43,861 nucleotides of DNA. Origin: a virus. The notes under the pieces were generated by a model, which worked only from the letters and a program-made list of their open reading frames with translations, had not been told where the DNA came from and searched no databases. The stretch spans positions 1 to 43,861 of the IMG/VR virus record IMGVR_UViG_3300030106_006417. One strand, given 5' to 3'. This document shows, piece after piece, positions 7,729-24,376 of this stretch (its first letter is position 1; each line of letters begins with the position of its first letter). Position numbers and translations under genes: made by a program.

Positions 7729-10700
7729 ATGGCCATAAGAGATGCCATAGTTCTAAATACTACAGGTAGTAGTTTTGAAGCTTTACAGTCTGGTGATACA
7801 GTAAGAGTTAAAGGAGACTTATTGGTTCAAGACTCCTCTGGCACATCACTTCTTTCTGTTGGCACTTCCGATACTACTGTTACTTTAGGCGGTAGTGTAA
7901 CTAGTAGTGCTATAATTAGTGGAAGTTCAACCTCAACTGCTTCTTTTGGAAGATTTGTTGCCACAACATATACTGGTGATGCTAGAGAAATAGCCTCTAC
8001 GCTCCCACGCTCCGCTGGTATAATTTCAGGTGCAGCTCAAATTAGAGATGATGTAAGTGGTAGTTTTGTAAGTGGATTTAGTTTTGGAGCAACTGCTGAC
8101 CAACTTTATGTGGGCGTAAGTGGTTCTAACTCAGAGCATTCTGCTAGTGTTTCAGGCAGTACAAGAGCAATGGCCGCTAGTGGTTCAGATTTAACACATT
8201 TAAAAAGTGATGAGATTGGACACATTAGAGGTATAGTTGGCGCCGGTACTTTTACAGCCGGAGATGCTTTAGGAACTGGTCGTGGTTATGTATTAGGTGC
8301 AGGTTCTCAGAATGCTGCACTAGCCTTTGGTGGATATGGCCCAAGTAATACAAGAAATAAAACGGAACATTATAATGGAACAAGTTGGTCAGAAGGTGGT
8401 AACTTAAATCAAAATCATCACAATGGACAGATGGGTGCCGGTTGGGGAGTTGAGTATGCCGCTATAAAAACTGGTGGAAATGGTCCTGGTCTTACTACTT
8501 CCACAGAAGTATACAATGGTACTTCTTGGTCTGAAATACAAAATAAAACTGTCGGACAATGCTGTGGTGGGGGTGCTGGTACTCAAAACGCTGGTGTTGC
8601 TTTTGGTGGAAACCCATCACCTAATACTACAGAACATTGGAATGGAACTTCGTGGAGCACTGGTGGTACAATGATTGCTGGTGGTGATAGAATAAATTGT
8701 GGAGCTGGTTTAGAAAATGCTGCTCTAGCTGCCGGTGTAGGTGGTTCACCTACTCCTAATACTTGCACAGAGGAGTATGATGGTACGAGTTGGTCTGCTG
8801 GTGGAATTCTAAGTGATAAAAAAAGTCGTGCCGGTACTGCGGGAACACAGAATGCAGCTATTGCAATTGATGGACTTAATGGTTCATCCGATGATGTTTC
8901 TCTACATTACGATGGTGCTAGTTGGTCAGTGGGTGGTAGTTCACTTCACAATAAATTTGATGTTGCTGCAGTTGGTGTACAGTCAGCCGCATTGAAGTTT
9001 GGTGGAACATATTTTCAAACCTGTACAGAACAATACAATGCTAATTACACAAACACAGGTAGTTTCGGTAGAATAGAAGCTGGTTATATCGTAGGTAATG
9101 CAGAAGATATAAAAGGACAAATTCCAAGAGATGCTGGATTGGTTACAAGTTCTGCTCAATTAGCTACTGATATATCAGGTAGTTTTACAAGTGGATTTAA
9201 TTTTGGTGCACCAGCGGATAGTCATTTTATAGGCGTTAGTGGTTCAACACCTACGCCAGGTGTAAGTGGTTCTGAAACTCACTACAGTAGTAGTGTCGGA
9301 CATCCTGCTGAAATATATGCAAGTGGTTCAGCATCTGGTTCCGACCACTCATTTCAATTGGTTGATGAATTAGGACACATTAAAGGTGTGGTTGAAGCAG
9401 GTGCGTGGTCATTAGGTCCAAATATAAATAATCCAAGACAAGATAATGCCGGTGCCGGAGTTCAAAATGCCGCACTATCCTTCGGTGGTTATCCTCCAAC
9501 TGGCGATACAGAAATTTACAACGGCACTACGTGGTCTGAACTTAATGATTTAAACTTAGCTAGAGCAAATGGTGGTGGTTTAGGAACTGTAGATGCCGCA
9601 CTGTATATGGGTGGACAGCCCACTATATCATGCACTGAGGAGTGGAATGGTACATCCTGGTCTGAGGTTACGAATATGACTACTGCTAGAGCTAATAATC
9701 AAGGAGTTGGTACTCAGAATGCTGGATTGATATTTGGTGGTAATCCAGGTATCGCGACAACAGAAGAATATAATGGTACTAGTTTCTCTGCAGGTGGTTC
9801 ATTAATTACAGCAATTTTCGGAGCCGGTGGTGCAGGAATTCAAAATGCGGCATTGAAATTTGGTGGTAGCACTCCATCAGTATCTAACACTACAGAACAC
9901 TACAACGGAACATCTTGGACTGCTGGTGGTAATTTAATCACTGCTAGAACTTATCTAAAAGGTGCGGGTGTAGAAAATAGTGCTCTTGCAGTTATGGGGC
10001 TTCCAGCAGCTGGTACGCTTACAGAACATTATGACGGTACTTCTTGGTCTGCTGGTGGTAGTCTGAACATAGCGAGATCTAGTGGTGCTGCTACAGGTGT
10101 TTCACACGCTGCTATAGCTATGGGTGGAGCACCAGCAACCTCTCATAGAGAATCAACTGAGTTATATGAAGGAAGTTTTTCCAACTCAGGTAGTTTCGGT
10201 AGAATAGAAGCAACAATATTAAAAGGGAATATAATCGGTTTGCAAAACTATTTAGTAAGAAGTGATAACATAGTTTCAGGTTCAGCTCAGATTAGAGTTG
10301 ATGTCAGTGGTAGTTTTGATGAGGGATTTAGTTTTGGTGCTAGCAATGCCCGTTTATTTGATGGGGTAAGTGGTTCAAGATTTACGCCTGGCGTAAGTGG
10401 TTCTGAACAATTTTACAGTTCAAGCTTTGGACACGTCACAGAACATATTGGAATAAGTGGTTCACATCCAAGCGGTGGTGCAGATTACTCACAACTACTT
10501 GAATCTGAAGCTGGACATATCAGAGGGAAAATCGTCAGTGGAGTTTGGTCTTCAGGTGGTGCTTTAATCACTGCTAGAAAAGTTGGTTCATTGGGTACAG
10601 GTGTAGAAAATGCAGCTCTAGCAGGAGATATACGAGGAGCACCTAATAATGACGCAGAAGAATATAATGGTACTGCTTGGTCGGTAACTGCCGATATGAT

Positions 10701-13700
10701 AAACGCGAGAGGTTTTGGTGCCGCAGCCGGAACTCAAAATGCTTCATTTTTTGCCGGTGGTACAACACCCGGTACATATGCCGTACCTACGGAAGATTAC
10801 AATGGAGTTTCATTTTCAAATATTGCGAATAGTAATCTAAACACTGGTAGACAAAAAATTGGTGGTGCTGGCTCTCAGAATGCTGGATTAGTATTTGGTG
10901 GCACACCATCGGCGCCAAAACAACAGACAGAAGAATGGAATGGTGTTGTTTGGACTGAAGCTGGTGCTACCGCATATTTAAGTGATGCTGGTTATAATAT
11001 TGTTGGAGCTGGTATTCAAAATGCCGCCCTAGCTATTGGTGGTCAACCATCATCTGCTAGAAAAGTAAGCACTGAACATTATGATGGTACTTCTTGGCGT
11101 GCCGGTGGTACTTTGATTACTACTAACGGGCATAAAAGAAGTGGTGCTGGAACTGAAAATGCTTCTTGGGTTGCGTTTGGTCAAGCTCCAGCTAATAGTA
11201 CACATACAGAGGTTTACGATGGTATTGCTTGGACATCTACTGCTAATGCAATTACAGCTAGATCATTGGCTGGTGCCGCCGGAACAGGCGCAGTTGGGTT
11301 AGCTTTTGGTGGATATAATCCAGGTCAGTTGAGTTGTACAGAACATTGGGATGGTGGTTTTGAAAATACAGGTAGTTTTGGTAGAATAGAATCAGCTCGT
11401 TTTGTTGGAGATGCCAGTGATTTAAGTAGTAGTTTAGGCTTAGTTGAATCTTCGGCAACTATTGCTAGTGATATAAGTGGTTCATTTTCATCTGGTTTCA
11501 ATATTGCTGTAAGAAAAGGTGGTTCAGCAAAAGATTTAATAAATGACGAAGGAGCAATCTTAACAGACCCAACAAGATGGTGTTGGACTTCATCTTCATT
11601 CAACGACCCACAGAATTATTCACTGAGAAGTACATTAAAACCCAGAGGACATTTTCAAGTCGATAGAAGGCATATAAACGCGGGAAGTGGTTCACTTGCT
11701 ACTTGGAGTCAAGGCACACCATTAATTAGCAGAAAAAGAACTCTAATTGGTGGTTCTACAGGACCTAGAGATGCTATTATGCTAGTAGGCGCAGGGCAGG
11801 GTGAATATGGCGGCTGTGGTAGAACTGAACTTTACGATGGTGTTGCTTGGTATGAAGGAAAATTTCAAAGTAATGGTAGAAGAGGTAAGATAGCCTTTGG
11901 AACACAGAATGCAGGAGTGGCACATGGTGGCAGAAGTATACATACATATAAGAATGATACAGAGAATTGGGATGGTATTAGTTGGACTACTGTAATATCA
12001 CATAACAGTGCCGTATCATGTTCAATAGATGGAATAGGATTTGGAACTCAAAATGATGGATTAATAGTATCATTTGCTTCAGGCAGTCCATCCTCTTGTC
12101 AAGACATTTGTCATTATGATGGAACTACTTTTTCTCGAGGTGCTGAAATGGTATATTCACAGGCTGCTGCCGGTGGTGCTGGTGACTCGGATTGTGCTAT
12201 TATTTTCGGAGGAAACCCTTCAGGAAATAGAAAACAAACACAGGAATATAATGGTACTAGTTGGGTTCAAAGAGCAAATCTTACATTTCCTGCAACTTTG
12301 AAATCAGGCGCTGGTGAAAATTACAGAAGGTCATGTCAGGCATTAGGTTTTGGTGGATTGACTCCAGGAAGAACAGTTAATGCAGAAGTTTTTGATTCAA
12401 CTATTAACTCTTGGTCAACAACTGCCGCACTAAGTAAAGGAAGAGGATATGCTGGAGTTCAAGCAGGTAATAATCAGTCCGCCTACGCCGTAGGTGGATT
12501 TCATCCCGCACCAGATTTCGATGGGGCAAATGCAGGAACTTTAGAAGTAGAGTATTACGATGAACATCTTATCGGTACTGGTTCATTCGGAAGTGTTATT
12601 GCTGGACAATTTTGGGGTGATGGAACAGGTGTATCTGCTTCATTATTCAGCAAAATATTATCAGGCTCACTATCAAGTTCTGCTCAAATAGCAGACGATA
12701 TTTCAGGTTCTTGGTCTAGTGGTATTGTAGCAAAAGGAGATATCATACCAGGTATTACCGATGGTGTTTGGTCAACTGCGAATTGTATACCCGGCCGAAG
12801 TACACCCAATGCTGCTGCTGGTGGATGTTTTAGAAGTAATACGATGTATGGCAGTGGTTACGCCCCCTCCCAACCCAAAGATACTTGGCTATACAATGAT
12901 ATAAGTTGGCGAGCTGCTGGAGAATTATTTAATCAGACTAATCCAACCTATAATGCAGAAATAGTTGGTGGTGAAACAAACTTTATGTTTCTTGGTGGAG
13001 ACCAATCTTTAGATAGAAATCAAATTTACGATGGCAAAGCTTGGTATCAAAATTCTAATTTACCAAATCCTCATTCCGTAACTTTGGGTGTTGCGGGTGC
13101 GGGTGATCCGAAAGTTGAAACTCATATCACAGGTAAAAGTCCTGCTTGTAACGGTCTCCATCTAATATGGAATACATTAGCTTGGTCAGTAGGTCCAGGT
13201 TTATCAATGGAACAGACATCACATAATTCAGTCGGTGGTGGTTCAGCAGTTTTGAATTATGGTGGTATGAACCCCAGTGCTGGATGTGAAATAGTACAGC
13301 GGTGGGATGGTACAACTTGGGCTCACGGACAACCTATGAATGTAGGACAACGCTTTGGTGCTGGTTTCGGTTCAGGTGTCAATGATGCACTTATCAATAC
13401 TAATTGTCATAATTTGTCACCTGCTCACAGTGGTACTCAGGTTTGGAATGGTACTAGTTGGAAAATTGGGAATGCTTCAACATTTAATAGGAAAATACCA
13501 ACTAATTTTGGTGGTGGAAACGGAACGCATGGGCTTGCAACTGGAAATCAACCATCTCCAACATCATTTGAAGAATGGAATGTATATTATTGTAATGATG
13601 CTACAGGTTCATTTGGAGCAGTTCAGCCAAAATCAACCTTTAGAGTAACTAATTTTACAGCAACGGGATCAGTTTTTAGATTACCAATTTTCAATGAACA

Positions 13701-13953
13701 TGATACAAGTGCACATTACTTTGTTTCAAGATCAAAACAACCAGGTGAGATGTGGTTTAACAAATCAAGAAATTCAATATTTTATACTTGGGAAAGTTCT
13801 AGTATTTCAACAAGTATGTGCGGAAGTTCAGGTGAAGGTGATCCAAACAATCAATACACTCAATCATTCAAAGTCTCAACTGTTATAACCTCACAAATAT
13901 CTTCAAGTAGATATACGGGAAGTTGGGGTGAGATTGAACAAGAATACATTTAG
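7729..13953 (+). CDS. Giant kelch beta-propeller adhesin (five propellers)
   Basis: A 2074-aa paralogue of the preceding gene, sharing the N terminus and the kelch consensus (NAALAFGG...TEHYNGTSWS.GG). The first ~180 residues contain ISGSSTSTASFGRF, identical in style to the shaft repeats of the gene at the window start. I count 30 blades in five groups of six, separated by linkers that hold the shaft module. The first three also carry a longer insert (GVSGS...GSE.HYSSS.GH...ELGHIKG.V) that the 2165-aa paralogue lacks. The fourth and fifth propellers are more degenerate. The protein ends in a cap with GEMWFNKSRNSIFYTW. It is probably a second tail fibre or a partner fibre subunit. The start is set by ACGGAG seven bases before ATG and by homology to the paralogue. 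Confidence 0.8.
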   Translation: MAIRDAIVLNTTGSSFEALQSGDTVRVKGDLLVQDSSGTSLLSVGTSDTTVTLGGSVTSSAIISGSSTSTASFGRFVATTYTGDAREIASTLPRSAGIISGAAQIRDDVSGSFVSGFSFGATADQLYVGVSGSNSEHSASVSGSTRAMAASGSDLTHLKSDEIGHIRGIVGAGTFTAGDALGTGRGYVLGAGSQNAALAFGGYGPSNTRNKTEHYNGTSWSEGGNLNQNHHNGQMGAGWGVEYAAIKTGGNGPGLTTSTEVYNGTSWSEIQNKTVGQCCGGGAGTQNAGVAFGGNPSPNTTEHWNGTSWSTGGTMIAGGDRINCGAGLENAALAAGVGGSPTPNTCTEEYDGTSWSAGGILSDKKSRAGTAGTQNAAIAIDGLNGSSDDVSLHYDGASWSVGGSSLHNKFDVAAVGVQSAALKFGGTYFQTCTEQYNANYTNTGSFGRIEAGYIVGNAEDIKGQIPRDAGLVTSSAQLATDISGSFTSGFNFGAPADSHFIGVSGSTPTPGVSGSETHYSSSVGHPAEIYASGSASGSDHSFQLVDELGHIKGVVEAGAWSLGPNINNPRQDNAGAGVQNAALSFGGYPPTGDTEIYNGTTWSELNDLNLARANGGGLGTVDAALYMGGQPTISCTEEWNGTSWSEVTNMTTARANNQGVGTQNAGLIFGGNPGIATTEEYNGTSFSAGGSLITAIFGAGGAGIQNAALKFGGSTPSVSNTTEHYNGTSWTAGGNLITARTYLKGAGVENSALAVMGLPAAGTLTEHYDGTSWSAGGSLNIARSSGAATGVSHAAIAMGGAPATSHRESTELYEGSFSNSGSFGRIEATILKGNIIGLQNYLVRSDNIVSGSAQIRVDVSGSFDEGFSFGASNARLFDGVSGSRFTPGVSGSEQFYSSSFGHVTEHIGISGSHPSGGADYSQLLESEAGHIRGKIVSGVWSSGGALITARKVGSLGTGVENAALAGDIRGAPNNDAEEYNGTAWSVTADMINARGFGAAAGTQNASFFAGGTTPGTYAVPTEDYNGVSFSNIANSNLNTGRQKIGGAGSQNAGLVFGGTPSAPKQQTEEWNGVVWTEAGATAYLSDAGYNIVGAGIQNAALAIGGQPSSARKVSTEHYDGTSWRAGGTLITTNGHKRSGAGTENASWVAFGQAPANSTHTEVYDGIAWTSTANAITARSLAGAAGTGAVGLAFGGYNPGQLSCTEHWDGGFENTGSFGRIESARFVGDASDLSSSLGLVESSATIASDISGSFSSGFNIAVRKGGSAKDLINDEGAILTDPTRWCWTSSSFNDPQNYSLRSTLKPRGHFQVDRRHINAGSGSLATWSQGTPLISRKRTLIGGSTGPRDAIMLVGAGQGEYGGCGRTELYDGVAWYEGKFQSNGRRGKIAFGTQNAGVAHGGRSIHTYKNDTENWDGISWTTVISHNSAVSCSIDGIGFGTQNDGLIVSFASGSPSSCQDICHYDGTTFSRGAEMVYSQAAAGGAGDSDCAIIFGGNPSGNRKQTQEYNGTSWVQRANLTFPATLKSGAGENYRRSCQALGFGGLTPGRTVNAEVFDSTINSWSTTAALSKGRGYAGVQAGNNQSAYAVGGFHPAPDFDGANAGTLEVEYYDEHLIGTGSFGSVIAGQFWGDGTGVSASLFSKILSGSLSSSAQIADDISGSWSSGIVAKGDIIPGITDGVWSTANCIPGRSTPNAAAGGCFRSNTMYGSGYAPSQPKDTWLYNDISWRAAGELFNQTNPTYNAEIVGGETNFMFLGGDQSLDRNQIYDGKAWYQNSNLPNPHSVTLGVAGAGDPKVETHITGKSPACNGLHLIWNTLAWSVGPGLSMEQTSHNSVGGGSAVLNYGGMNPSAGCEIVQRWDGTTWAHGQPMNVGQRFGAGFGSGVNDALINTNCHNLSPAHSGTQVWNGTSWKIGNASTFNRKIPTNFGGGNGTHGLATGNQPSPTSFEEWNVYYCNDATGSFGAVQPKSTFRVTNFTATGSVFRLPIFNEHDTSAHYFVSRSKQPGEMWFNKSRNSIFYTWESSSISTSMCGSSGEGDPNNQYTQSFKVSTVITSQISSSRYTGSWGEIEQEYI
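8244..13590 (+). repeat. Kelch repeat array, 30 blades in five groups
   Basis: Approximate propeller limits are 8244-9045, 9403-10176, 10541-11358, 11694-12569 and 12763-13590. Blades follow the pattern of a glycine/alanine-rich strand with NAA.AFGG, a loop, then TE.YNGTSW. The inserted linkers between propellers are 60-120 residues. Counts and limits are by eye from the translation. Confidence 0.75.
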
Positions 13954-15070: not shown

Positions 15071-16570
15071 ATGAAAAAAATTTTAGTAGCCGGTGGAGGA
15101 CTATCAGGTTTTATTAGTGCTTTATATGTAAAAAAAGTTTTTACAAATGTAGAGGTTTCTTTGGTACATTCTTCTGATATAGGTATATTAGGAGCTGGTG
15201 AAGGAACCACACCACAGTTCAAAAAACTTCTTGATATACTCAAAATAGATAAAAGAGACTTTCTAAAGAAAACCAAAGGAACATTAAAACTTGGAATACA
15301 GTTTGATAATTGGAATGGTGATAAAGACTCTTACGTGCATGGATTTGGTGATACAGTTTTTAAACCTGAGTCTAAAGATAGAACCGAAGAGGAAAATAGA
15401 CTTGCACTAATTCATTATGGTATATCTAAATCCATACATGTAGATAAATTATCTTGTTTAAAGTCTCTCATAGATAATTTTAAATCATCACTGTTTTTAT
15501 CTAATCAAGAACAAAATATAACTACTGATTCATACATTGATGCTTTACACTTGGATGCTCATTTGTCAGCTGAATATTTAGAGAATATTGCTAAAAGTAG
15601 AGGTGTAAAAGTTATTGAAGATAAAATTTTAGACTTTGAATTAAATCAAGATGGTTTCATTACAAAAGTTATCGGTGATAGTGAAAACTATGATTGTGAT
15701 TTCGTATTCGATTGTACAGGCTTCGCAAGAATGATTATTGGTAAAAAATATGAGACTGAGTGGGTATCCTATAAAAATCATTTAACATTAGATTCAGCAT
15801 TTTCATTTCAATTACCGATAGATTCGGAAAAAATAAAACCTGCTACAATTGCCACCGCTATGAATTCGGGATGGATGTGGAAGATACCATTAACTTACAG
15901 ATTTGGTTGTGGTTACATATATGACAGTAATTTTATAACTGAAGAGGAAGCTATAAAAGAAGTTGAACTTCACTTAGACACTCAGATAGAAATTGTGAAT
16001 AGATTTAAATTTAATGCCGGTAGATATGAGAATAGCTGGGTGAAAAATTGTTGTGCTATAGGCTTGAGTTCAAATTTTACAGAGCCACTTGAAGCAACAT
16101 CAATTTGGTTACAGTTTTTATCCTTATCTAAGTTGATGGAGTGTAACTTTTTTGATTTATGCAAAGACAAAAATATTGTTGATGATTATAATAACTATGT
16201 TGCTGACCTATCAGATTTGACTATGAACTTTCTTTATTTCCACTATATGACAAAAAGAAATGATACTCCATTTTGGAAAACTTACAGTGAGAGAACAACT
16301 ATCCCAAAGCAATTGAAATCTCTAATTGATTTTTGGAATCAGAAAGCTCATACTCCGCATGATGAAGATATGTTGGGAGATGTTTTTGGGGTAGCATCGT
16401 ATCTAATGGTTGGACATGGAAATAAGTTTTGGAACAAAAAATCATCAAAAGATTATTGTGATGTTAGAAATTTAGATAATGTAGAAAAGTTTGTATCAAA
16501 TATTCCAAAAATAGAAAACTTTCTTTTAGAAAAGTCTATTACACACGAAGATTTTTTAAGGTATTTATAA
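15071..16570 (+). CDS. Flavin-dependent tryptophan-halogenase-like protein
   Basis: A 499-aa protein, close to the usual length for the PrnA/RebH family. An FAD-binding GGGLSG lies at residues 8-13 and GAGEGTTP at 41-48. K73 in GTLKLGIQF lies where the family's catalytic lysine forms the hypohalous-acid adduct. The signature WxWxIP is intact as WMWKIP (268-273), and PLEATSIW follows near residue 340. Known members use FADH2, oxygen and halide to chlorinate or brominate tryptophan, free or within peptides; the substrate here is unknown. It heads an overlapping operon with five 2OG oxygenases, a glycosyltransferase and a sulfotransferase, and its stop overlaps the next ATG (TAATG). No flavin reductase is in the window, so host FADH2 would be needed. 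Tryptophan-halogenase-like genes are known from marine myophages. A related flavin monooxygenase activity cannot be excluded. Confidence 0.88.
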   Translation: MKKILVAGGGLSGFISALYVKKVFTNVEVSLVHSSDIGILGAGEGTTPQFKKLLDILKIDKRDFLKKTKGTLKLGIQFDNWNGDKDSYVHGFGDTVFKPESKDRTEEENRLALIHYGISKSIHVDKLSCLKSLIDNFKSSLFLSNQEQNITTDSYIDALHLDAHLSAEYLENIAKSRGVKVIEDKILDFELNQDGFITKVIGDSENYDCDFVFDCTGFARMIIGKKYETEWVSYKNHLTLDSAFSFQLPIDSEKIKPATIATAMNSGWMWKIPLTYRFGCGYIYDSNFITEEEAIKEVELHLDTQIEIVNRFKFNAGRYENSWVKNCCAIGLSSNFTEPLEATSIWLQFLSLSKLMECNFFDLCKDKNIVDDYNNYVADLSDLTMNFLYFHYMTKRNDTPFWKTYSERTTIPKQLKSLIDFWNQKAHTPHDEDMLGDVFGVASYLMVGHGNKFWNKKSSKDYCDVRNLDNVEKFVSNIPKIENFLLEKSITHEDFLRYL

Positions 16571-17184
16571 TGTTTATTTTTAGAAAAGAAAAGTCAATAC
16601 CTGATGATTTATGTGATGCTTTTATAGAAACCTTTGAAACATGTCCAGAAAGTTATAGACATCGTGGTGTGGTTTCAAACAAAAAAGATGGAGTTTATCA
16701 AGATAAAGATGTAAAACTTTCTACCGATATTTCTTTTAATCCTTCTATGGAAACAGATTCATTTTGGGGGGATAAAATAAGCTACACAGTAAATACTTTA
16801 TACGATGCTATGACGGAGTATAGAAGTAGATATCACGTTGCTTTCAATAATATTGATAAGTTCAAAGTAGGAAATCTTTTTAATATGCAAAAGTATGAAC
16901 CAGGTGAAGCATACTACAAATATCATTGTGAAAGAGCTGGTATGAAACATTCCGATAGAATTTTAGTGTGGATGATTTATCTGAATAATGTTTATGATGG
17001 TGGGGAAACTGAATTTTTTTACTACCATCATTATGAACCTGCCAGAAAAGGAACATTACTGATATGGCCAACAGATTGGACTCACCTACATAGGGGTATA
17101 TTAAGTAATACAGAAAATAAATATATATTGACAGGTTGGTACACTTTTTTAACTGAAGAGGAGAAAGAAAATGGAAAGGATTAG
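16570..17184 (+). CDS. 2OG-Fe(II) oxygenase, prolyl-4-hydroxylase-like
   Basis: A 204-aa protein with the C-terminal double-stranded beta-helix pattern of the P4H superfamily: KYEPGEAYYKYHCE, YLNNVYDGGETEF, KGTLLIWP, LHRG, then NKYILTGW. Likely iron ligands are H119, E121 and H174, with K184 in place to bind 2-oxoglutarate. The second ligand is glutamate (HxE) where most members have aspartate (HxD), which is unusual but occurs in some active enzymes. The family couples oxidative decarboxylation of 2OG to hydroxylation of a peptide or small molecule. Its ATG shares a base with the halogenase stop and it overlaps the next oxygenase by 14 bp, so translation is probably coupled. The substrate is unknown. 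Confidence 0.85.
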   Translation: MFIFRKEKSIPDDLCDAFIETFETCPESYRHRGVVSNKKDGVYQDKDVKLSTDISFNPSMETDSFWGDKISYTVNTLYDAMTEYRSRYHVAFNNIDKFKVGNLFNMQKYEPGEAYYKYHCERAGMKHSDRILVWMIYLNNVYDGGETEFFYYHHYEPARKGTLLIWPTDWTHLHRGILSNTENKYILTGWYTFLTEEEKENGKD

Positions 17185-17821
17185 TGGACTTAGTTATGGA
17201 GTAAGACCGTGTAATTTTAATGACTTCTACTATTTCAGAAATGCACTATCGGATGAGATGATTGAAGAAATTCATAAAATGGTTTACGACAATAATTATG
17301 AATTTAAAAAGGGTGGAACTGGTTATGCTGAAGCTGGTGGTATAGATCAGGATAATTCTAATAACAGAGATATTGCTTACATTCCGTGGGTAGAACATTC
17401 AAATATGATTTACACATATTTGGAAAGTTGTGTAATTAAAGCAAATCAAGAAATATTTCAGTTTGATATTCAGTATGTAACCGACTTATTACATTACGTT
17501 ATATATCCGACACCAAATCAGCCTGATACATTAGGACAGGTTAGGGAAACAGGTGGTCATTTGGACTGGCATATGGACATCGGTCAAGGTATGGTGAACA
17601 GAAGAAAATTAGCAACAACTGTTCAACTAAGTGACCCAAATGATTACGAAGGCGGTGATTTTCAAATATGGTATGGTGGAAGTGAAGGATTTATAACTTT
17701 ACCAAGAGAAAAAGGTGATATACTTATATTCCCAAGTTTTTATTTACATAGAGTAACTCCAATAACAAAAGGTGAGAGAAGAGCACTTGTGTTTTGGACA
17801 GGAGGAGAACCATTTAGATGA
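17171..17821 (+). CDS. 2OG-Fe(II) oxygenase, PKHD/PiuC-like
   Basis: A 216-aa protein with a complete facial triad: H134 and D136 in GGHLDWHMD, H193 in SFYLHRV, and R203 in KGERRALVFW as the 2OG anchor. GGDFQIWYGG and KGDILIFPS are the expected core strands. The overall pattern is that of PKHD-type hydroxylases such as PiuC, though the lineage assignment is by eye. It overlaps the upstream oxygenase by 14 bp and the downstream one by 4 bp (ATGA). The start at 17171 is supported by GAAGAGGAG upstream. The substrate is unknown; hydroxylation of a peptide, nucleotide sugar or other small molecule are all possible. Confidence 0.88.
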   Translation: MERISGLSYGVRPCNFNDFYYFRNALSDEMIEEIHKMVYDNNYEFKKGGTGYAEAGGIDQDNSNNRDIAYIPWVEHSNMIYTYLESCVIKANQEIFQFDIQYVTDLLHYVIYPTPNQPDTLGQVRETGGHLDWHMDIGQGMVNRRKLATTVQLSDPNDYEGGDFQIWYGGSEGFITLPREKGDILIFPSFYLHRVTPITKGERRALVFWTGGEPFR

Positions 17822-18432
17822 GTTTAGAATTTATATCAAATGAACATATGTTGTTTCCAACACCACTCTGGCAAGTTCAGATTAAAGGTGTGGATAATGA
17901 TGCGATCAAAAAATATGTTTACCATTTAAGGGATACTACAGAGGGAGTTGTTATATCTAATAGAGGTGGATGGCATTCAAAAGATATTTTGGAGCCAATT
18001 CCTGAAGCTTTGGAAAATTTATTTAGTAATTTCCAATCATTCGTAAATCAGTATTGTGCACAAATAACAGGTTTGAATCAATTAAAGATTGGAAATTTTT
18101 GGTTTAATATTAATTCGAAATACGATTACAATAGAACACACGATCATCAAAATAGTATTTTATCTGCTGTGTATTACATTGATGCTATAGGAGATAATAT
18201 TGGTTCGTTTGTCGCTGAAAGAGATGATTCAGCAGAGTTTTTTCTTGGCACTTATAAAAATATAACTCCATTCACATCTACAAGTTTTTCAATTACTCCA
18301 TTAACAGGATTTGCTTTCATAATGCCGTCTTGGGTTTTACATTCTGTTGAACAGAACTTTGAGGATAGGGATAGAATTTCATTAGCTGTCAATTTTATAA
18401 GACATGACATTGAGGAAAACCCTTATGTCTAA
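17818..18432 (+). CDS. Putative 2OG-Fe(II) oxygenase (TIGR02466-like), copy 1
   Basis: A 204-aa protein starting close to MLFPTPLWQ, the hallmark N terminus of the TIGR02466/2OG-FeII_Oxy_5 group. The core motif THDHQNSILSAVYYID (H108, H110) is followed by MPSWVLHSVEQN (H175) and DRISLAVNF (R185), giving the His/His and Arg positions expected for metal and 2OG binding. It is the most divergent of the three members of this group here and lacks the KGKLGD tail shared by the next two. ATGA overlap with the preceding gene implies coupled translation. Activity and substrate are untested for this group in phages. Confidence 0.8.
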   Translation: MSLEFISNEHMLFPTPLWQVQIKGVDNDAIKKYVYHLRDTTEGVVISNRGGWHSKDILEPIPEALENLFSNFQSFVNQYCAQITGLNQLKIGNFWFNINSKYDYNRTHDHQNSILSAVYYIDAIGDNIGSFVAERDDSAEFFLGTYKNITPFTSTSFSITPLTGFAFIMPSWVLHSVEQNFEDRDRISLAVNFIRHDIEENPYV

Positions 18433-19072
18433 TAATTCAGATGCAAATATTTTTCAAATGTTTTCAACACCATTATATGTAAGTAACTACAAAGGTGATA
18501 TGACAGAAATAAATAATTATTTACACAGCATTGAGTTGCATGAACATAATCCAGGTTATGGTATGATTTCAAAAGATAGTTATCTTATAGACAATCTGAT
18601 TTGTAAACCATTAGCAGATTTTATACATAAATCTATGACAGACTTTGCTATTAACTGTATGGCACTAAATGAGGAAATCTTTTTTTCTCAAAGTTGGATA
18701 AGCGGTAAAGCTCAAGGTGCTTCACATAAAGCACATTCTCATCCCAACACAATCATCGCATCTGTATTTTACTTTGATGCCGAAGAAGGAGATTCCCCAA
18801 TATGCTTTAGTAAAGAAGCCAGGTCTTTAAATAGAAGTTACATAGAGCCAAGTCTAAGAGATGACTACCAACAAAACATTTTTGCTCAAGATGAAATATA
18901 TTACTATCCTAAGAGAAATGATTTAATAATATTTCCATCTTGGTTAATGCACGGTGTTCCCCCAAATCAAAAACCAAAAATTAGAAAAGTCTTAGGAGTG
19001 AATGCTATGACAAAGGGAAAGTTAGGAGATCGTGAAACAATAAGCGAATTGGATTACAAAAGATATGTATGA
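18425..19072 (+). CDS. Putative 2OG-Fe(II) oxygenase (TIGR02466-like), copy 2
   Basis: I place the start at ATG 18425 rather than the in-frame ATG at 18404. GAGGA lies nine bases upstream of 18425, and the protein then begins MSNNSDANIFQMFSTPLY, so the FSTPLY motif falls near the N terminus as in its relatives. The 215-aa product has HKAHSHPNTIIASVFYFD (H104, H106), FPSWLMHGV (H176) and R187 in KIRKVLGVN. The C terminus TKGKLGDRETISEL matches the next gene closely, so the two are probably tandem duplicates. It overlaps the neighbours by 8 bp on both sides. Confidence 0.82.
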   Translation: MSNNSDANIFQMFSTPLYVSNYKGDMTEINNYLHSIELHEHNPGYGMISKDSYLIDNLICKPLADFIHKSMTDFAINCMALNEEIFFSQSWISGKAQGASHKAHSHPNTIIASVFYFDAEEGDSPICFSKEARSLNRSYIEPSLRDDYQQNIFAQDEIYYYPKRNDLIIFPSWLMHGVPPNQKPKIRKVLGVNAMTKGKLGDRETISELDYKRYV

Positions 19073-19745
19073 GTTAAAAAGAGAGGGAGACACCGATACA
19101 ACGGTGTTGGGTTTATTTCCAACACCACTGTATACCACAATAATACCAAATGAATTTTCCGTTGCTGCTAATTTTTTTGATAATTTAGAGCATGAAACTA
19201 ATAAAGGTGGAAAGGAAATAGATTACGGAACACATTCAAAGAATACTTATGTGATGCATGAACCAGAGTGTAAGGATTTAGCAGATTGGATTTTAGTTAG
19301 AGTAAAAGATTTTGCTGAGAGTGTCTTACGATATGATTATGAGGATTATACCTTTTCACAGACATGGGTGACTTTTAAAGAACCAGGACAATCACATATT
19401 GCACATAGTCATCCAAATTCACTTATATCAGCAGTTTTTTTCTATGGATATGGCACTGATGAAACACCAGCTATAACATTTCACAAAATGAGTGGCATGC
19501 ATTCAATGCCTAATCTTCAAGCAAAAGTAAAATCTGATAGAACGGATGCCGAATTTAGCTGGGATACATTTAATATTAGTTTTCAACCTGGTCTTTTAAT
19601 AATATTCCCATCTCACTTTTATCACTCTGTGCCAAAAAACACCACAGATTTTACGCGAAAAAGTTTATCTATGAACATAGTTCCAAAAGGTAAGCTCGGA
19701 GACCCAAACAGTTTAACAGAACTATGGTTTGAAAAGGTAATTTAA
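19065..19745 (+). CDS. Putative 2OG-Fe(II) oxygenase (TIGR02466-like), copy 3
   Basis: A 226-aa protein with LFPTPLYTT at residues 17-25, SHIAHSHPNSLISAVFF (H114, H116), FPSHFYHSV (H187) and R198 in FTRKSLSMN. It ends in PKGKLGDPNSLTEL, nearly the tail of the previous gene, which marks the pair as paralogues. It is the fifth oxygenase in a row and abuts the glycosyltransferase gene without a gap. The enzyme class is well supported by the motif layout; the substrate is not known. Confidence 0.82.
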   Translation: MYELKREGDTDTTVLGLFPTPLYTTIIPNEFSVAANFFDNLEHETNKGGKEIDYGTHSKNTYVMHEPECKDLADWILVRVKDFAESVLRYDYEDYTFSQTWVTFKEPGQSHIAHSHPNSLISAVFFYGYGTDETPAITFHKMSGMHSMPNLQAKVKSDRTDAEFSWDTFNISFQPGLLIIFPSHFYHSVPKNTTDFTRKSLSMNIVPKGKLGDPNSLTELWFEKVI

Positions 19746-20624
19746 ATGGAAAAATATTTTGTTTGGCACATCCAAGGTGGATTAGGTAAAAATGTTGCCG
19801 CAACATCACTTTGTGAAGATATAAAAAGAACCAATCCTGATAGAAAGCTGATCATGGTTGTTAGTTGGCCTGAAGTGTTTCTAAATCATCCTAATATTGA
19901 TAGGGTTTACAACATCGGACAAACTCCACACTTTTATGATAATTATATTCATAACAAAGACACTATGATTTACAGACATGAACCATATAATCAGAGTGGA
20001 CACATCCATAGAAAGACACATTTGATAGAAAATTGGTGTCATCTACTTAATCTACAATATAGAGAACAGACTCCTAAAGTAATTATCAATTATGCTCAAC
20101 AACAACTAGTGGGTATGTGGAACAGAGAAAAACCTACAATGGTACTACATACAAATGGTGGGCCAATTGGTAATCAAAAATATCCCTACAATTGGTGTCG
20201 TGATTTACCACCCGAATTAGCTCAAGCAATTGTTGACAAATTTCACAAAGAGTATCATATATTTCAAATTTGTCGCACAGATTCGGTGACTTTAGATAAT
20301 GTTGAACGAATAGACCAACAGTTGAGTAATTTAGAGTTGTTTTCTTTACTAGCTAGTTCTAAGAAAAGAGTTTTGATTGATAGTTGTCTACAACATGCAG
20401 CGACTGCTTTTGGATTACAATCAACTGTTGTATGGGTAGGAACATCACCAATGGTTTTTGGTTACAAACTACATAAAAATGTAGTTGCTAAAGTTCCGAA
20501 TAAAAAGAACCAGTTGATAGGTTCATATTTATTTGACTATCAGTTTGAAAATAACATTCATGAATGTCCTTATATAAATGTAAATGAAATGTTTGATGTT
20601 AATCAATTACTAAGAGAATTATAA
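19746..20624 (+). CDS. GT9/heptosyltransferase-like glycosyltransferase
   Basis: A 292-aa protein. The N terminus reads VWHIQGGLGKNVAATSLCEDIKR then RKLIMVVSWPEVFLNHPNIDRVYNIG, the layout of the GT-B fold N-domain in heptosyltransferases (glycine loop, a helix, then a strand and HPxxDRVY). The C-domain has LELFSLLASSKKRVLIDSCLQHAATAFGL, like the donor-binding region where a helper Ser/His stretch precedes HxAAAxG. Family members transfer sugars from ADP-heptose or related nucleotide sugars. It is somewhat short for GT9, so donor and acceptor are open. It begins directly after the last oxygenase stop and its own stop overlaps the sulfotransferase ATG (TAATG). Confidence 0.65.
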   Translation: MEKYFVWHIQGGLGKNVAATSLCEDIKRTNPDRKLIMVVSWPEVFLNHPNIDRVYNIGQTPHFYDNYIHNKDTMIYRHEPYNQSGHIHRKTHLIENWCHLLNLQYREQTPKVIINYAQQQLVGMWNREKPTMVLHTNGGPIGNQKYPYNWCRDLPPELAQAIVDKFHKEYHIFQICRTDSVTLDNVERIDQQLSNLELFSLLASSKKRVLIDSCLQHAATAFGLQSTVVWVGTSPMVFGYKLHKNVVAKVPNKKNQLIGSYLFDYQFENNIHECPYINVNEMFDVNQLLREL

Positions 20625-21442
20625 TGAAACAAAAGTTATTTTTTCAATCATCGTTACCAAGGGCTGGCTCAACTTTATTACAGAATATAGTTGCACACAA
20701 TCCTGATTTTTATTCATCACCTACTTCAGGCTTAGTGGACTTAATGTTAGGTACTAGAATAGGATATAATGAAAATCCAGAGTCAAAAGCAGCTTCATCA
20801 GAAGAATGGAAAGCTGGATTCTTAGGATATTGTAGAGCTGGATTTGACGGTTATATGAAAGCATTGACAGACAAGCCATATTTCTTCGATAAAAGTAGGG
20901 CTTGGGGGCCTTACTACTCTTTGGTAGAGATGATTGTACCTAATCCTAAAGTGGTGTATATGGTAAGAGATTTTAGAGCAATTTACTCTTCAATGGAAAA
21001 ATTATTCAGAAAAAATCCTGATGTCGACCCAAAAATTTTGAATAATATCGATATGACTGGCATTACAACCGATCAAAGAGTTACGCACTGGGCTAATACT
21101 CATCCAGTTGGGTTTACAATTACTAAATTACATCAATGTCTATTGGATGGTACTGCAAAAAACTTTTTATTTTTCAAATATGAAGAATTTTGTCAATCGC
21201 CAGATGAGCATATGAAAAAAATGTATGAATTCTTTGAATTACCTTATTATCAACATAATTGGGATAATATAGAACAAATCACACACGAAAATGATGCGGT
21301 GCATGGAATATTCGGAGACCATAAGATAAGAAATAAATTAGAAGCACAAAAAGAAGATTTTTATGAAATTTTAGGAAATTATACCTGTGATAGAATAAAA
21401 AATGAGTATAAATGGTTTTATGATTACTTTAATTATCAATAA
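20624..21442 (+). CDS. PAPS-dependent sulfotransferase
   Basis: A 272-aa protein with both cofactor motifs of the sulfotransferase family. The 5'-phosphosulfate loop is SSLPRAGSTLLQNIV (residues 9-23), and the 3'-phosphate site is VVYMVRDFRAIYSSMEK (110-126, with R115 and S122). The middle and C-terminal segments (FFKYEEFCQSPDEHMKKMYEFFELP) match the family's late helices. It would move sulfate from PAPS to a hydroxyl or amine on a sugar, peptide or small molecule in the cytoplasm. As the last gene of the modification operon it could sulfate a product of the upstream oxygenases or glycosyltransferase. Confidence 0.88.
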   Translation: MKQKLFFQSSLPRAGSTLLQNIVAHNPDFYSSPTSGLVDLMLGTRIGYNENPESKAASSEEWKAGFLGYCRAGFDGYMKALTDKPYFFDKSRAWGPYYSLVEMIVPNPKVVYMVRDFRAIYSSMEKLFRKNPDVDPKILNNIDMTGITTDQRVTHWANTHPVGFTITKLHQCLLDGTAKNFLFFKYEEFCQSPDEHMKKMYEFFELPYYQHNWDNIEQITHENDAVHGIFGDHKIRNKLEAQKEDFYEILGNYTCDRIKNEYKWFYDYFNYQ

Positions 21443-21880: not shown

Positions 21881-24376
21881 ATGGCAGAAAGAATCGTCAG
21901 TCCTGGCGTCTTTACGAGAGAAAGGGATTTATCTTTCTTACCAGTTGGCATCGGTGAAATCGGTGCAGCAATAATAGGACCAACACTCAAAGGTCCTTCT
22001 TTTGTACCAACTGTAGTAAGAAATTTTCAAGAATTTGAGAATACCTTTGGAGGGTATTCCGAAGATTATTACACTTCATTCACAGTAAGAGAGTATTTAA
22101 GATCCGCTGGGTCTGTTACTATAGTTAAAGTTGGACACATAGGTGGTTATACTGCTGGAACTGTAAACCTAGTGGTTAGTGGTGCTAATGCAACAGCCGC
22201 CGCAGCTAGTTTTCCAAATACTGTGGTTGCTACATTTGCTCCTTCAGCTTTGAACAGTAGTGGACTTGGTTCCATAAGTGGTTCATTGGGTGGTAGTGTA
22301 ATTGCTAATTCATTTACATTAAACTTAGCAGGAACTAATGCTACCGCTAGTCTAACAGAACAATCTATTTTAGAGGCTGGTGTAGGTGCATTATTTTCAG
22401 ACGCAGTTGGTTCTGAACCATTACAGCCATCTATCGGTGCTACAGCAGCGCCTGCTTACACATATAAACATTTTAAATCAGCTATCAGTTCTTCAAAAGC
22501 TAACGGATATGTGGTTGGTGCAAGTTCAACATTAAGTCTTGAAACACATGCTTCAGGTCTCGACTTCGGTGGTGGAACGACTACTGTTAATGAAACAACT
22601 TATGAGACAACTATAACTGGTAATAAAGATGCACAAGCTGCTCGTACACCTTACATTCAATCGCAAAAGGTTGGTGGTAGTGTTACAAACCTGTTTAGAG
22701 TTTATCAAAGAGTAGATGGTGCGGCATCAAACTTTTACTATGTAGTAATTGGTGATGTAAAAAGACCACAAAATTCAAACTCAAGTGCGGATTTTGCTCA
22801 GTTTTCATTATCGGTATATAATTCTGCGGGTAATTTAGAAGAAGGGCCTTACACCAATTTGAACTTAGACCCAGCATCACCTAACTTTGTTGCTAAGGTG
22901 ATTGGAGATCAGTTTCAAACTGTAACATCCGCTGGTGAAGTTGTTACTCACGGTGAGTATGCTAATAGGTCGGAAAGAATCCGTATAGGTGATTTTGATG
23001 AGAAAACATTTACTGGCGCACCAGCACTACAACCTATGGGTTTTGCTGCTGTACTAGAACCTATTGTTGCTACAGCATCTGTGCCTACTGGCTCTTTCAA
23101 TCATGAACAAATATCAACAACTCTTCCTAATGCTTATAATGAAGACATACCTTATGGGTGGAAAATCAGTAGAGCTTACTTTGTGGATGAGGAGTTGGAT
23201 ACTAATTATCAATATCATTCAGCTATTCCAAATGGCGTGGACAATGGTAATAATGTGGCATTCTCATTAGAGGATATGCAGGGATTTGGTACAGATAGTT
23301 CACTTGAAGCTACAAAATTCACTAATTTTGTAACCAGAGGAGCGGATGCTTCCTCTCCAAATGGTGCAACATTAACAATATCCGCATCTGCACAACAGTT
23401 AAAATTTGCTGTTCCGTTTCAACAAGGATTTGATGGTGTTAATCCTTCTATAGAACCGAAAACTGGTGGAGATATCAGTGCTAGTAACATAATGGGATTT
23501 GATTGCTCTTCAACTACTGCGAGTGGTTCTGTTGCTTACAAAAGAGCTATTGATACCGTAAGTAATCCTGATGAGATTGACATTAATATGTTAGTAACTC
23601 CTGGTGTTATTCATAGTTTACATCCTGTAGTGACTAATCATGCGATGGATAAAGTAGAGTCTCGTGCTGATTGCTTCTATGTGATGGACTCAGCAGCTTG
23701 GGGTGATAATGTTTCAACAGCAGTTGATAATGTCGCAACATTAGATACTAATTATGTAGCAACTTACTATCCTTGGGTAAAGATAGATAATCCTGACACT
23801 GGTAAAGGACTGTGGGTTCCACCTTCAGTAGTGATACCTGGTGTGATTGCTTTTACAGATAGTGTGGCACATGAATGGTTTGCACCTGCTGGATTGAATC
23901 GTGGTGGATTAAGTTCTGTAAGGATAGCTAAGAAAAAGCTAACTCATACAGACAGAGATACATTGTACGAAGCTCGTGTAAATCCGATTGCGACATTTCC
24001 TGGTCAAGGGGTTGTTGTGTTTGGACAAAAAACATTACAAGCTAGACCATCTGCTTTAGACAGAATCAATGTAAGAAGACTACTTATCAGATTGAAGAAG
24101 TTTATTGCTTCCTCAAGCAGATTCTTAGTATTTGAACAAAATGATTCATCTACAAGAAGCAGATTCTTAAATATTGTAAATCCGTTCTTAGAATCAGTAC
24201 AGTCCAACAGTGGACTAAGTGCTTTTAGAGTTGTGATGGATGACTCCAACAATACACCTGATGTCATTGATAGAAATCAGTTGGTTGGACAAATATTCAT
24301 ACAACCTACTAGAACTGCTGAGTTCATTGTATTGGACTTTACAGTATTACCTACGGGTGCTGCATTTCCTGAGTAA
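21881..24376 (+). CDS. 18: Contractile tail sheath protein (gp18-like)
   Basis: An 831-aa protein. The N terminus (MAERIVSPGVFTRERDLSF, then GAAIIGPTLKGPSFVPT and TFGGYSEDYYTSFTVREYL) is the conserved start of myovirus sheath proteins. The C-terminal domain (ALDRINVRRLLIRLKKFIASSS, FLNIVNPFLESVQSNSGL, TAEFIVLDFTVLPTG) matches the inner tube-contacting core and the C-terminal arm. The middle (about residues 90-500) is a Ser/Thr/Ala-rich, more variable outer domain, longer than in T4 gp18 (659 aa). It assembles around the tube and contracts on infection. A rho-independent terminator lies directly after it and the tube gene follows. Confidence 0.95.
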   Translation: MAERIVSPGVFTRERDLSFLPVGIGEIGAAIIGPTLKGPSFVPTVVRNFQEFENTFGGYSEDYYTSFTVREYLRSAGSVTIVKVGHIGGYTAGTVNLVVSGANATAAAASFPNTVVATFAPSALNSSGLGSISGSLGGSVIANSFTLNLAGTNATASLTEQSILEAGVGALFSDAVGSEPLQPSIGATAAPAYTYKHFKSAISSSKANGYVVGASSTLSLETHASGLDFGGGTTTVNETTYETTITGNKDAQAARTPYIQSQKVGGSVTNLFRVYQRVDGAASNFYYVVIGDVKRPQNSNSSADFAQFSLSVYNSAGNLEEGPYTNLNLDPASPNFVAKVIGDQFQTVTSAGEVVTHGEYANRSERIRIGDFDEKTFTGAPALQPMGFAAVLEPIVATASVPTGSFNHEQISTTLPNAYNEDIPYGWKISRAYFVDEELDTNYQYHSAIPNGVDNGNNVAFSLEDMQGFGTDSSLEATKFTNFVTRGADASSPNGATLTISASAQQLKFAVPFQQGFDGVNPSIEPKTGGDISASNIMGFDCSSTTASGSVAYKRAIDTVSNPDEIDINMLVTPGVIHSLHPVVTNHAMDKVESRADCFYVMDSAAWGDNVSTAVDNVATLDTNYVATYYPWVKIDNPDTGKGLWVPPSVVIPGVIAFTDSVAHEWFAPAGLNRGGLSSVRIAKKKLTHTDRDTLYEARVNPIATFPGQGVVVFGQKTLQARPSALDRINVRRLLIRLKKFIASSSRFLVFEQNDSSTRSRFLNIVNPFLESVQSNSGLSAFRVVMDDSNNTPDVIDRNQLVGQIFIQPTRTAEFIVLDFTVLPTGAAFPE

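Follow-up and report, generated by a model that had tools for sequence, protein, structure and literature searches.

The stretch of DNA analysed here (the window; 43,861 nucleotides of viral origin, IMG/VR record IMGVR_UViG_3300030106_006417) carries at positions 15071-21442 eight plus-strand ORFs, each overlapping or abutting the next: a halogenase, five 2-oxoglutarate (2OG)-type oxygenases, a GT9-fold glycosyltransferase (GT) and a sulfotransferase (ST). The cassette lies behind two giant fibre genes and ahead of the tail sheath gene (Table 1). An eight-gene overlapping operon had been predicted from the sequence alone, and the ORF coordinates bear this out; the junctions then named (TAATG, ATGA, a 14-bp and an 8-bp overlap) are all present. 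The 29-bp overlap created by the mechanical start of oxygenase 4 at 18404 shrinks to 8 bp with the ATG at 18425, which has GAGG ahead of it. The counterpart junction in the related contig L294 likewise overlaps by 8 bp, and 18425 is our preferred predicted start.

Table 1. Features of the cassette and its surroundings, in window positions.
Feature	Position	Strand	Remarks
Giant fibre gene FIB1, 2165 aa (proposed substrate)	1190..7687	+	About 29 kelch-like E-x-[YWF]-[ND]-G-x-x-W repeats, Trp-rich
Giant fibre gene FIB2, 2074 aa (proposed substrate)	7729..13953	+	Same repeat type as FIB1 and related to it
Small protein, 89 aa	14007..14276	+	55-71% identity in L294, L295, L299, L300 and L307
All-helical linker W14334, 244 aa	14334..15068	+	First gene of the conserved unit; AF2 model all helix, pLDDT 73
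Flavin-dependent (tryptophan-type) halogenase	15071..16570	+	PF04820 Trp_halogenase, 1e-104; window-specific insertion
Oxygenase 1, prolyl-4-hydroxylase-like	16570..17184	+	PF13640, 8e-10; HxE...H, Lys replaces Arg
Oxygenase 2, PiuC/PKHD-like	17171..17821	+	PF13640, 8e-13; PiuC, 1.5e-10; HxD...H...R
Oxygenase 3	17818..18432	+	PF13759; HxH...H...R
Oxygenase 4	18425..19072	+	PF13759; HxH...H...R; mechanical ORF start 18404
Oxygenase 5	19065..19745	+	PF13759; HxH...H...R
GT9-fold glycosyltransferase (GT)	19746..20624	+	AlphaFold (AF2) pLDDT 88.5; Foldseek to 3tov, WaaC, WaaF, TibC
PAPS-type sulfotransferase (ST)	20624..21442	+	PF13469 Sulfotransfer_3, 2e-16
Protein of 100 aa	21496..21798	+	Precedes sheath, right edge of variable slot; conserved in most sheath-set relatives
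Tail sheath (context)	21881..24376	+	phrog_23, 1e-68

The enzyme families named in the original prediction were recovered in Pfam for the halogenase, the oxygenases and the ST, and the catalytic positions examined across the cassette are intact. The halogenase has the sequence motifs of the PF04820 flavin-dependent tryptophan halogenases: an FAD-binding GxGxxG (GGGLSG), the catalytic K73, the WMWKIP already reported as intact (W268MWKIP) and E341, the Glu after EPL; K73 and E341 are the conserved Lys and Glu that align with halogenase active-site residues. Two oxygenases belong to 2OG-FeII_Oxy_3 (PF13640) and three to 2OG-FeII_Oxy_5 (PF13759). The former have the metal triad HxD/E...H plus a basic residue for 2OG binding (H119xE121, H174 and K184 in oxygenase 1; H134xD136, H193 and R203 in oxygenase 2). 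Predicted oxygenases 3, 4 and 5 carry the PF13759 motif HxH (or HxD)...H...R, whose positions among 58 sequences are H in 58, H in 46 or D in 12, H in 58 and R in 57. HxH is thus the family norm, found also in the solved member 3bvc, and we rejected the idea that it marks decay. Oxygenases 4 and 5 are 34% identical to each other. The at least three subgroups first proposed are not clearly distinguishable, since there are two Pfam families, with HxE and HxD variants within PF13640.

The ST was correctly called a PAPS enzyme: besides its Pfam match it has both the 5′ (PRxGST) and the 3′ (R...S) phosphate-binding motifs of PAPS-dependent sulfotransferases, whose positions vary little or not at all in 20 relatives (R13, G15, R115 and S123 invariant). 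Its best PDB relatives are TPST1 and TPST2. The catalytic base of tyrosine sulfotransferases is the Glu of GEET, and the aligned position of the ST reads TPTS; because this Glu is not conserved, tyrosine sulfation is not indicated and we dropped it as a specific claim. The GT (292 aa) has no match in Pfam, to GT9 or otherwise, and a profile search against the PDB reached only E 0.22, to WaaF, but the fold of its AlphaFold model agrees with the predicted GT9-like enzyme. The closest folds in Foldseek are GT9 structures, namely 3tov and the heptosyltransferases WaaC, WaaF and TibC. It shares 33-50% identity with the GTs that accompany the ST in other phages.

The fibre repeat has a 45-residue period and the motif [YW]-[ND]-G-x-x-W; it is kelch-like by motif and period only, and FIB2 has no Pfam kelch match, nor any Pfam hit whatsoever. 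Trp makes up 1.94% of FIB1, against medians of 0.41-0.52% in control fibres. However, the residues conserved in the repeat (Y, W and NG) resemble those normal for a kelch blade and are perhaps buried, so that the richness in Trp is no evidence of a halogenation site, and we rejected it as proof of halogenation. The 89-aa protein stands behind the fibre in cassette loci and is labelled in most fibre-set loci. The linker is 37-86% identical in 18 relatives; its fold search returned no significant match. Neither the fibre nor the linker gene found a match among 50,697 isolated-phage records at the tblastn thresholds used, with low-complexity filtering on.

Much of this arrangement recurs in other phages. 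Contig L294 has the identical cassette gene order at 56-88% identity, minus the halogenase, and every gene shared with it is under purifying selection (dN/dS 0.055-0.22). The array is present, in whole or in part, in about a dozen further records, some of which also encode APS kinase and an adenylyltransferase, and contigs that have diverged to about 45-58% identity keep the five oxygenases and the GT as colinear orthologues, mostly with the ST. Judged from gene order, identity and selection, the cassette without the halogenase is a real, inherited unit. The linker and the repeat fibre belong to it as well, and so do APS kinase and adenylyltransferase in several relatives. The halogenase gene is absent from all 14 related records and from the equivalent L294 junction. 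We therefore rejected it as an ancestral member; on this comparison it is a single-gene insertion found only in this window. A single-sequence scan of IMG/VR found no relatives of it, whereas an alignment-based scan did. The dedicated tailoring pathway originally proposed for this late structural region thus finds support for the oxygenases, the GT and the ST, and not for the halogenase, which lies outside the conserved unit. Because gene order is conserved, selection is purifying and the checked active sites are intact, neither unlinked, randomly gained genes nor lost active sites speak against such a pathway.

The array tracks one type of repeat fibre, in both directions and across phages with differing structural genes. 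Of 15 cassette loci, 13 have the fibre, and the remaining two contigs start after its position; none of 240 control loci has it (0/80 each of the sheath, ST and halogenase sets). Among 37 loci chosen solely for the fibre repeat and having 2.5 kb or more of sequence behind it, at least two oxygenases adjoined the fibre in 34 and an ST in 20. Since many of the loci are nearly the same, few are independent; after dereplication the figures are 8/11 and 4/11. In L299, L302 and L307 the GT and ST genes have fibre genes between them, and in AG-345-L05 fibre genes alternate with oxygenase, ST and GT genes. Related GT and ST genes also stand behind giant ORFs in other phages. Since relatives keep the order of the unit, always beside one fibre type where that end is sequenced, the phage's own fibre is probably what the enzymes decorate.

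Sulfation may be equipped with its own donor in some of these phages. In 47 dereplicated ST loci, the GT lies no more than 8 genes away in 40 cases and APS kinase in 36; an ORF of 500 aa or longer is among the 5 genes upstream in 34, and in 29 the ST directly precedes APS kinase. L300/L301, L303 and L307 have APS kinase, adenylyltransferase and DUF2061 in addition, and relatives with the first two would have their own PAPS supply. Searches for isolated-phage relatives of the APS kinase gave no match (tblastn thresholds, low-complexity filtering on), and no relevant literature was found on a phage sulfotransferase combined with APS kinase.

We consider it fairly probable that the cassette is expressed late and matures the tail fibre, hydroxylating, glycosylating and sulfating the repeats of the phage's own fibre and in this phage perhaps halogenating them too. 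In the scheme that we infer, as to late expression, substrate, order of reactions, modified residues and benefit alike, the giant kelch-like fibre would be made in the host cytoplasm, where the five oxygenases would hydroxylate side chains of its repeats. The GT would then attach a sugar, possibly onto a new hydroxyl, and the ST would transfer sulfate from PAPS, for which several relatives also encode the synthesising enzymes, onto the sugar or a side chain. The additional halogenase of this phage may halogenate exposed Trp or Tyr of the repeats; a viral relative, VirX1, acts on diverse substrates, to go by the title of Gkotsi 2019 as cited in PMC10452541. The adhesin would thereby acquire a chemically altered surface, with changed receptor binding or protease resistance. 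TibC, which glycosylates repeat adhesins (PMC4358343), is one of the structural matches of the modelled GT and would favour fibre modification. Counting against it, tail-fibre regions are known to be hypervariable (PMC3909814, PMC7029224).

The main rival to fibre maturation, which we regard as unlikely, is that the enzymes alter the LPS, capsule or S-layer on the surface of the infected host to block superinfection or re-adsorption, the fibre adjoining them since receptor recognition and alteration travel together. WaaC and WaaF are indeed among the best matches of the GT fold, and the glycosyltransferases of the pelagimyophage host-recognition cluster are so interpreted in PMC7029224. However, the array follows one fibre type through phages with different structural genes, sits among late virion genes and includes five protein-hydroxylase-like oxygenases with no obvious role in LPS. 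A pathway tailoring a small molecule or natural product, hinted at when metabolomics was suggested for this locus, is improbable: halogenases, oxygenases, sulfotransferases and glycosyltransferases are classic tailoring families, but no PKS, NRPS, terpene or RiPP-precursor scaffold enzyme was recognised among the annotated genes of the window and neighbouring cassette loci, and the constant partner is a fibre gene.

We give still less credence to auxiliary metabolism, in which the oxygenases would draw down 2-oxoglutarate, a published proposal for the 2OG oxygenases of cyanophages in connection with NtcA signalling (PMC3037559), and APS kinase would aid host sulfur assimilation; it leaves unexplained why five distinct, separately conserved oxygenases keep a fixed order with one fibre type, and why the ST so often directly precedes APS kinase. 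Just as hard to credit is a chance gathering of unrelated accessory genes in the hypervariable slot that separates fibre from sheath. This slot is variable: many sheath-set relatives have the fibre directly before the sheath block, L097 has there a beta-propeller-like and a TPR-oxygenase-like ORF, L124 a GT2-like ORF, and the halogenase is an isolated insertion. Yet colinear orthologues persist at the divergence described above, and the shared genes are under purifying selection, which largely refutes chance for the five oxygenases, the GT and the ST; the halogenase is not covered by this argument.

Fibre maturation also has to be set beside known systems. Single members of these families had been said to occur in marine phages, which is true but understated, as Syn10 and HTVC008M already have multi-gene groupings. 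In cyanophage Syn10 (HQ634191; VirX1, PDB 6qgm) a halogenase likewise follows tail-fibre-like genes and precedes several HxH oxygenase genes; however, there are two tandem halogenases, no GT-ST pair within the stretch read and no [YW]NG..W repeat in the fibres. Its characterised halogenase, VirX1, is about 26% identical to that of the window. The VirX1 locus presumably also has a SapC/DUF6065-like gene, which the window's cassette lacks. Pelagibacter phage HTVC008M has the closest isolated-phage halogenase (39.6%), adjoining an oxygenase near the sheath, with an oxygenase stack nearby, but the oxygenase-halogenase pair lies between the small and large terminase genes, and GT, ST and repeat fibre are absent there. 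In collagen, 2OG hydroxylases act on a repeat protein and glycosyltransferases afterwards; the proposed logic is alike, with no homology to the phage fibre, and is an analogy only. The TibC/AAH autotransporter heptosyltransferases (BAHT) have a GT9-type fold and act on a large repeat adhesin (PMC4358343), but the phage GT is shorter and lacks the CxxC motif of the four-Cys iron finger of TibC, for which reason we dropped BAHT membership; its TM-score to TibC is about 0.57, and LPS heptosyltransferases such as WaaC are as close. The host-recognition clusters and metaviromic islands of marine phages also have fibre genes in the company of GTs or Fe(II)-dependent oxygenases, within structural regions that are hypervariable (PMC3909814, PMC7029224). 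These papers give categories of genes, and the passages concerned contain no oxygenase-GT-ST unit of fixed order that goes with one fibre type.

More broadly, there is about an even chance that phages possess a multi-step fibre protein maturation, in which ordered hydroxylases, a GT and an ST, in several relatives with their own PAPS supply, are passed on together with a single class of repeat fibre in different phage lineages, halogenases and other enzymes being added on. The 2OG oxygenases, reported in 76 of 153 cyanophage genomes (PMC10452541), rank with the most common marine-phage genes whose role is unexplained; a metabolic role has been proposed (PMC3037559). A fixed-order unit tied to one fibre would offer at least part of them a substrate in the adhesin of the virion itself. 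Such a unit further suggests that APS kinase genes of viruses can serve sulfation and not sulfur assimilation, and orphan viral halogenases would gain a possible protein target.

The original prediction of eight abutting or overlapping ORFs is borne out in the 43.9-kb virus record, junctions included. Pfam assigns the first gene to the tryptophan halogenases (1e-104), the next five to the oxygenase families PF13640 (two) and PF13759 (three), and the last to the sulfotransferases (ST; 2e-16). The seventh gene, predicted to be GT9-like, has no significant Pfam match, but the label stands at the fold level: its AlphaFold model (pLDDT 88.5, built on a 36-row alignment) matches GT9 3tov, WaaC, WaaF and TibC. 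In our alignment, halogenase GGGLSG, K73, WMWKIP and E341 line up with RebH and viral relatives, and WMWKIP is intact as proposed. Oxygenase 1 carries HxE...H with Lys, oxygenase 2 HxD...H...R, and oxygenases 3–5 HxH...H...R. Decay was considered for HxH and rejected, since it recurs in 46 of the 58 relatives compared and in 3bvc, a PF13759-like protein of solved structure, which makes it the family pattern. ST residues R13, G15, R115 and S123 are invariant across 20 relatives. The tail sheath is long, with a variable N-terminal half, and its closest isolated match is in Microcystis phage Mel-JY01 (45%).

Features of the window and of compared loci (L-numbers).
Feature	Location	Size	Remark
Giant repeat fibre FIB1	1190..7687	2165 aa	upstream of cassette
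Giant repeat fibre FIB2	7729..13953	2074 aa	upstream of cassette
Small gene	14007	89 aa	upstream of cassette
Small gene, linker	14334	244 aa	upstream of cassette; all-helical
Cassette	15071-21442		+ strand; halogenase, oxygenases 1–5, GT9-fold glycosyltransferase (GT), ST
100-aa gene	21496	100 aa	downstream of cassette
Tail sheath	21881-24376	831 aa	downstream of cassette
Tail tube			downstream of cassette
Conserved gene after last oxygenase	L348:15220-15867	about 215 aa	example from L308-L372; resembles another 2OG oxygenase
Slot equivalent to cassette, sheath relative	L097:7335-9595		339-aa beta-propeller-like ORF; TPR protein with oxygenase-like C-terminus
Kyanoviridae locus (AG-345-L05, MH319754)	L169:4094-29185		large fibre-like genes alternate with oxygenases, two STs, glycosyltransferases, carbamoyltransferase
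Halogenase–sulfation cassette	L050:7829-11539		sulfotransferase-2-like, Asp-hydroxylase-like oxygenase, fused APS kinase-adenylyltransferase (252 aa), DUF2061, halogenase; named by eye

A scan using oxygenases 4 and 5 retrieved 14 viral loci. ORFs in these and the other compared loci were labelled with HMMs that were built for this analysis and may cross-match among oxygenase classes; all compared loci are best matches rather than random samples, and IMG/VR records are mostly fragments. The gene order sought elsewhere was found in L294 (14007, 14334, five oxygenases, GT, ST, 21496, sheath; 56–88% identity), but without the halogenase. Comparison of the window with L294 gives a dN/dS of 0.055–0.22 in every cassette gene they share, and the sheath has 0.17 (Nei–Gojobori, dS partly close to saturation). 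The five oxygenases of L300/L301 and L295-L298 are colinear orthologues of the window's (about 44–61%), and L303 has a similar set, partly broken or duplicated. With such orthologues in relatives and only 34% identity between oxygenases 4 and 5, the array must be old. A Flavobacteriaceae-binned MAG contig (L254) has the unit in shortened form, with 14334, two oxygenases, GT, ST and two repeat fibres.

The window's halogenase is an addition to the unit. It has no match in the 14 related records, which as fragments do not prove absence from the genomes, and its nearest relatives are about 40–43% identical. In 52 halogenase clusters, drawn non-randomly from 80 best matches, an oxygenase lies within 6 genes in 35 and a sulfation gene in 13. 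One locus (L018) combines a carbamoyltransferase, oxygenases, two STs, halogenase, an APS kinase-like gene and an adenylyltransferase. The L050-type cassette, distinct from the window's, recurs in about 13 similar loci and suggests that a halogenation–sulfation link has arisen independently in phages.

STs about 44–52% identical to the window's are paired with a related GT in many phages. Among 47 dereplicated ST loci, 40 have this GT at most 8 genes away (directly preceding in 23), 36 an APS kinase (directly following in 29), 30 an adenylyltransferase and 26 DUF2061. Upstream of the ST, an ORF of 500 aa or more lies no further than 5 genes away in 34. Pfam supports the L182 copies (APS_kinase 2.6e-9, CTP_transf_like 1.7e-5, DUF2061 2e-16); the adenylyltransferase product would be APS. 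APS kinase was labelled in 2 of 160 halogenase- and sheath-set loci, one of them (L018) adjoining STs, and no PAPS genes were seen in the window. In Dyella and other bacterial genomes (L273, L275, L279, L292) the ST gene adjoins a very large ORF (1345–2590 aa; Gly-rich in the first three), possibly a bacterial adhesin with fibre-tailoring logic. Two Synechococcus single-cell genomes (L257, L259) hold STs 42–43% identical to the window's, on contigs that are possibly phage DNA from infected cells.

The 45-residue fibre repeat, which carries the motif E-x-[YW]-[ND]-G-[TS]-x-W-[ST] (1258 motifs across 179 ORFs), is found in 13 cassette loci out of 15; both exceptions are contigs that begin inside the cassette. 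The repeat is found in 0/80 sheath-set, 0/80 ST-set and 0/80 halogenase-set loci, control sets that differ in length and ecology; the Fisher test of these counts ignores kinship, and its p-value is given no weight. The repeat as sole query gave 65 loci, many near-identical. Where at least 2.5 kb lies behind the last repeat fibre (n = 37), at least two oxygenases occur in 34, the linker gene in 34 and ST in 20; dereplicated by the linker gene at 80% (n = 11), oxygenases remain in 8 and ST in 4. These oxygenase counts are a minimum, since the HMMs leave the oxygenase-like gene of about 215 aa unlabelled. HMM labelling found no GT in fibre-set loci; the GT is therefore part of the unit's T4-like branch only. 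In L348, the fibre-side locus examined in full, neighbouring structural genes are unlike the window's T4-like sheath region, so the fibre–array association is not merely shared ancestry of one genome.

Halogenase–oxygenase groupings near tail genes were already known from Syn10 and HTVC008M, and Mizuno et al. list Fe(II)-dependent oxygenases with fibres in metaviromic islands (PMC3909814); an earlier account of the fixed-order unit was not found in the mostly open-access literature searched. In cyanophages, the oxygenases were suggested by Sullivan et al. to have a 2OG/nitrogen role (PMC3037559), and pelagimyophage GTs have been interpreted as surface-altering (PMC7029224). Modification of the host surface remains the main rival explanation of the cassette, since the fold of the GT fits LPS-type enzymes just as well. 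The repeat Tyr and Trp resemble kelch-blade structural residues and may be buried; therefore, we name no target residue. The simplest reading of the genes, their order, motifs, selection and linkage is that the cassette is a maturation system for the phage's own fibre; substrate, reaction order, products and benefit are our interpretation. The phage's own adhesin would thus be hydroxylated, glycosylated and sulfated and, in this phage, possibly halogenated.
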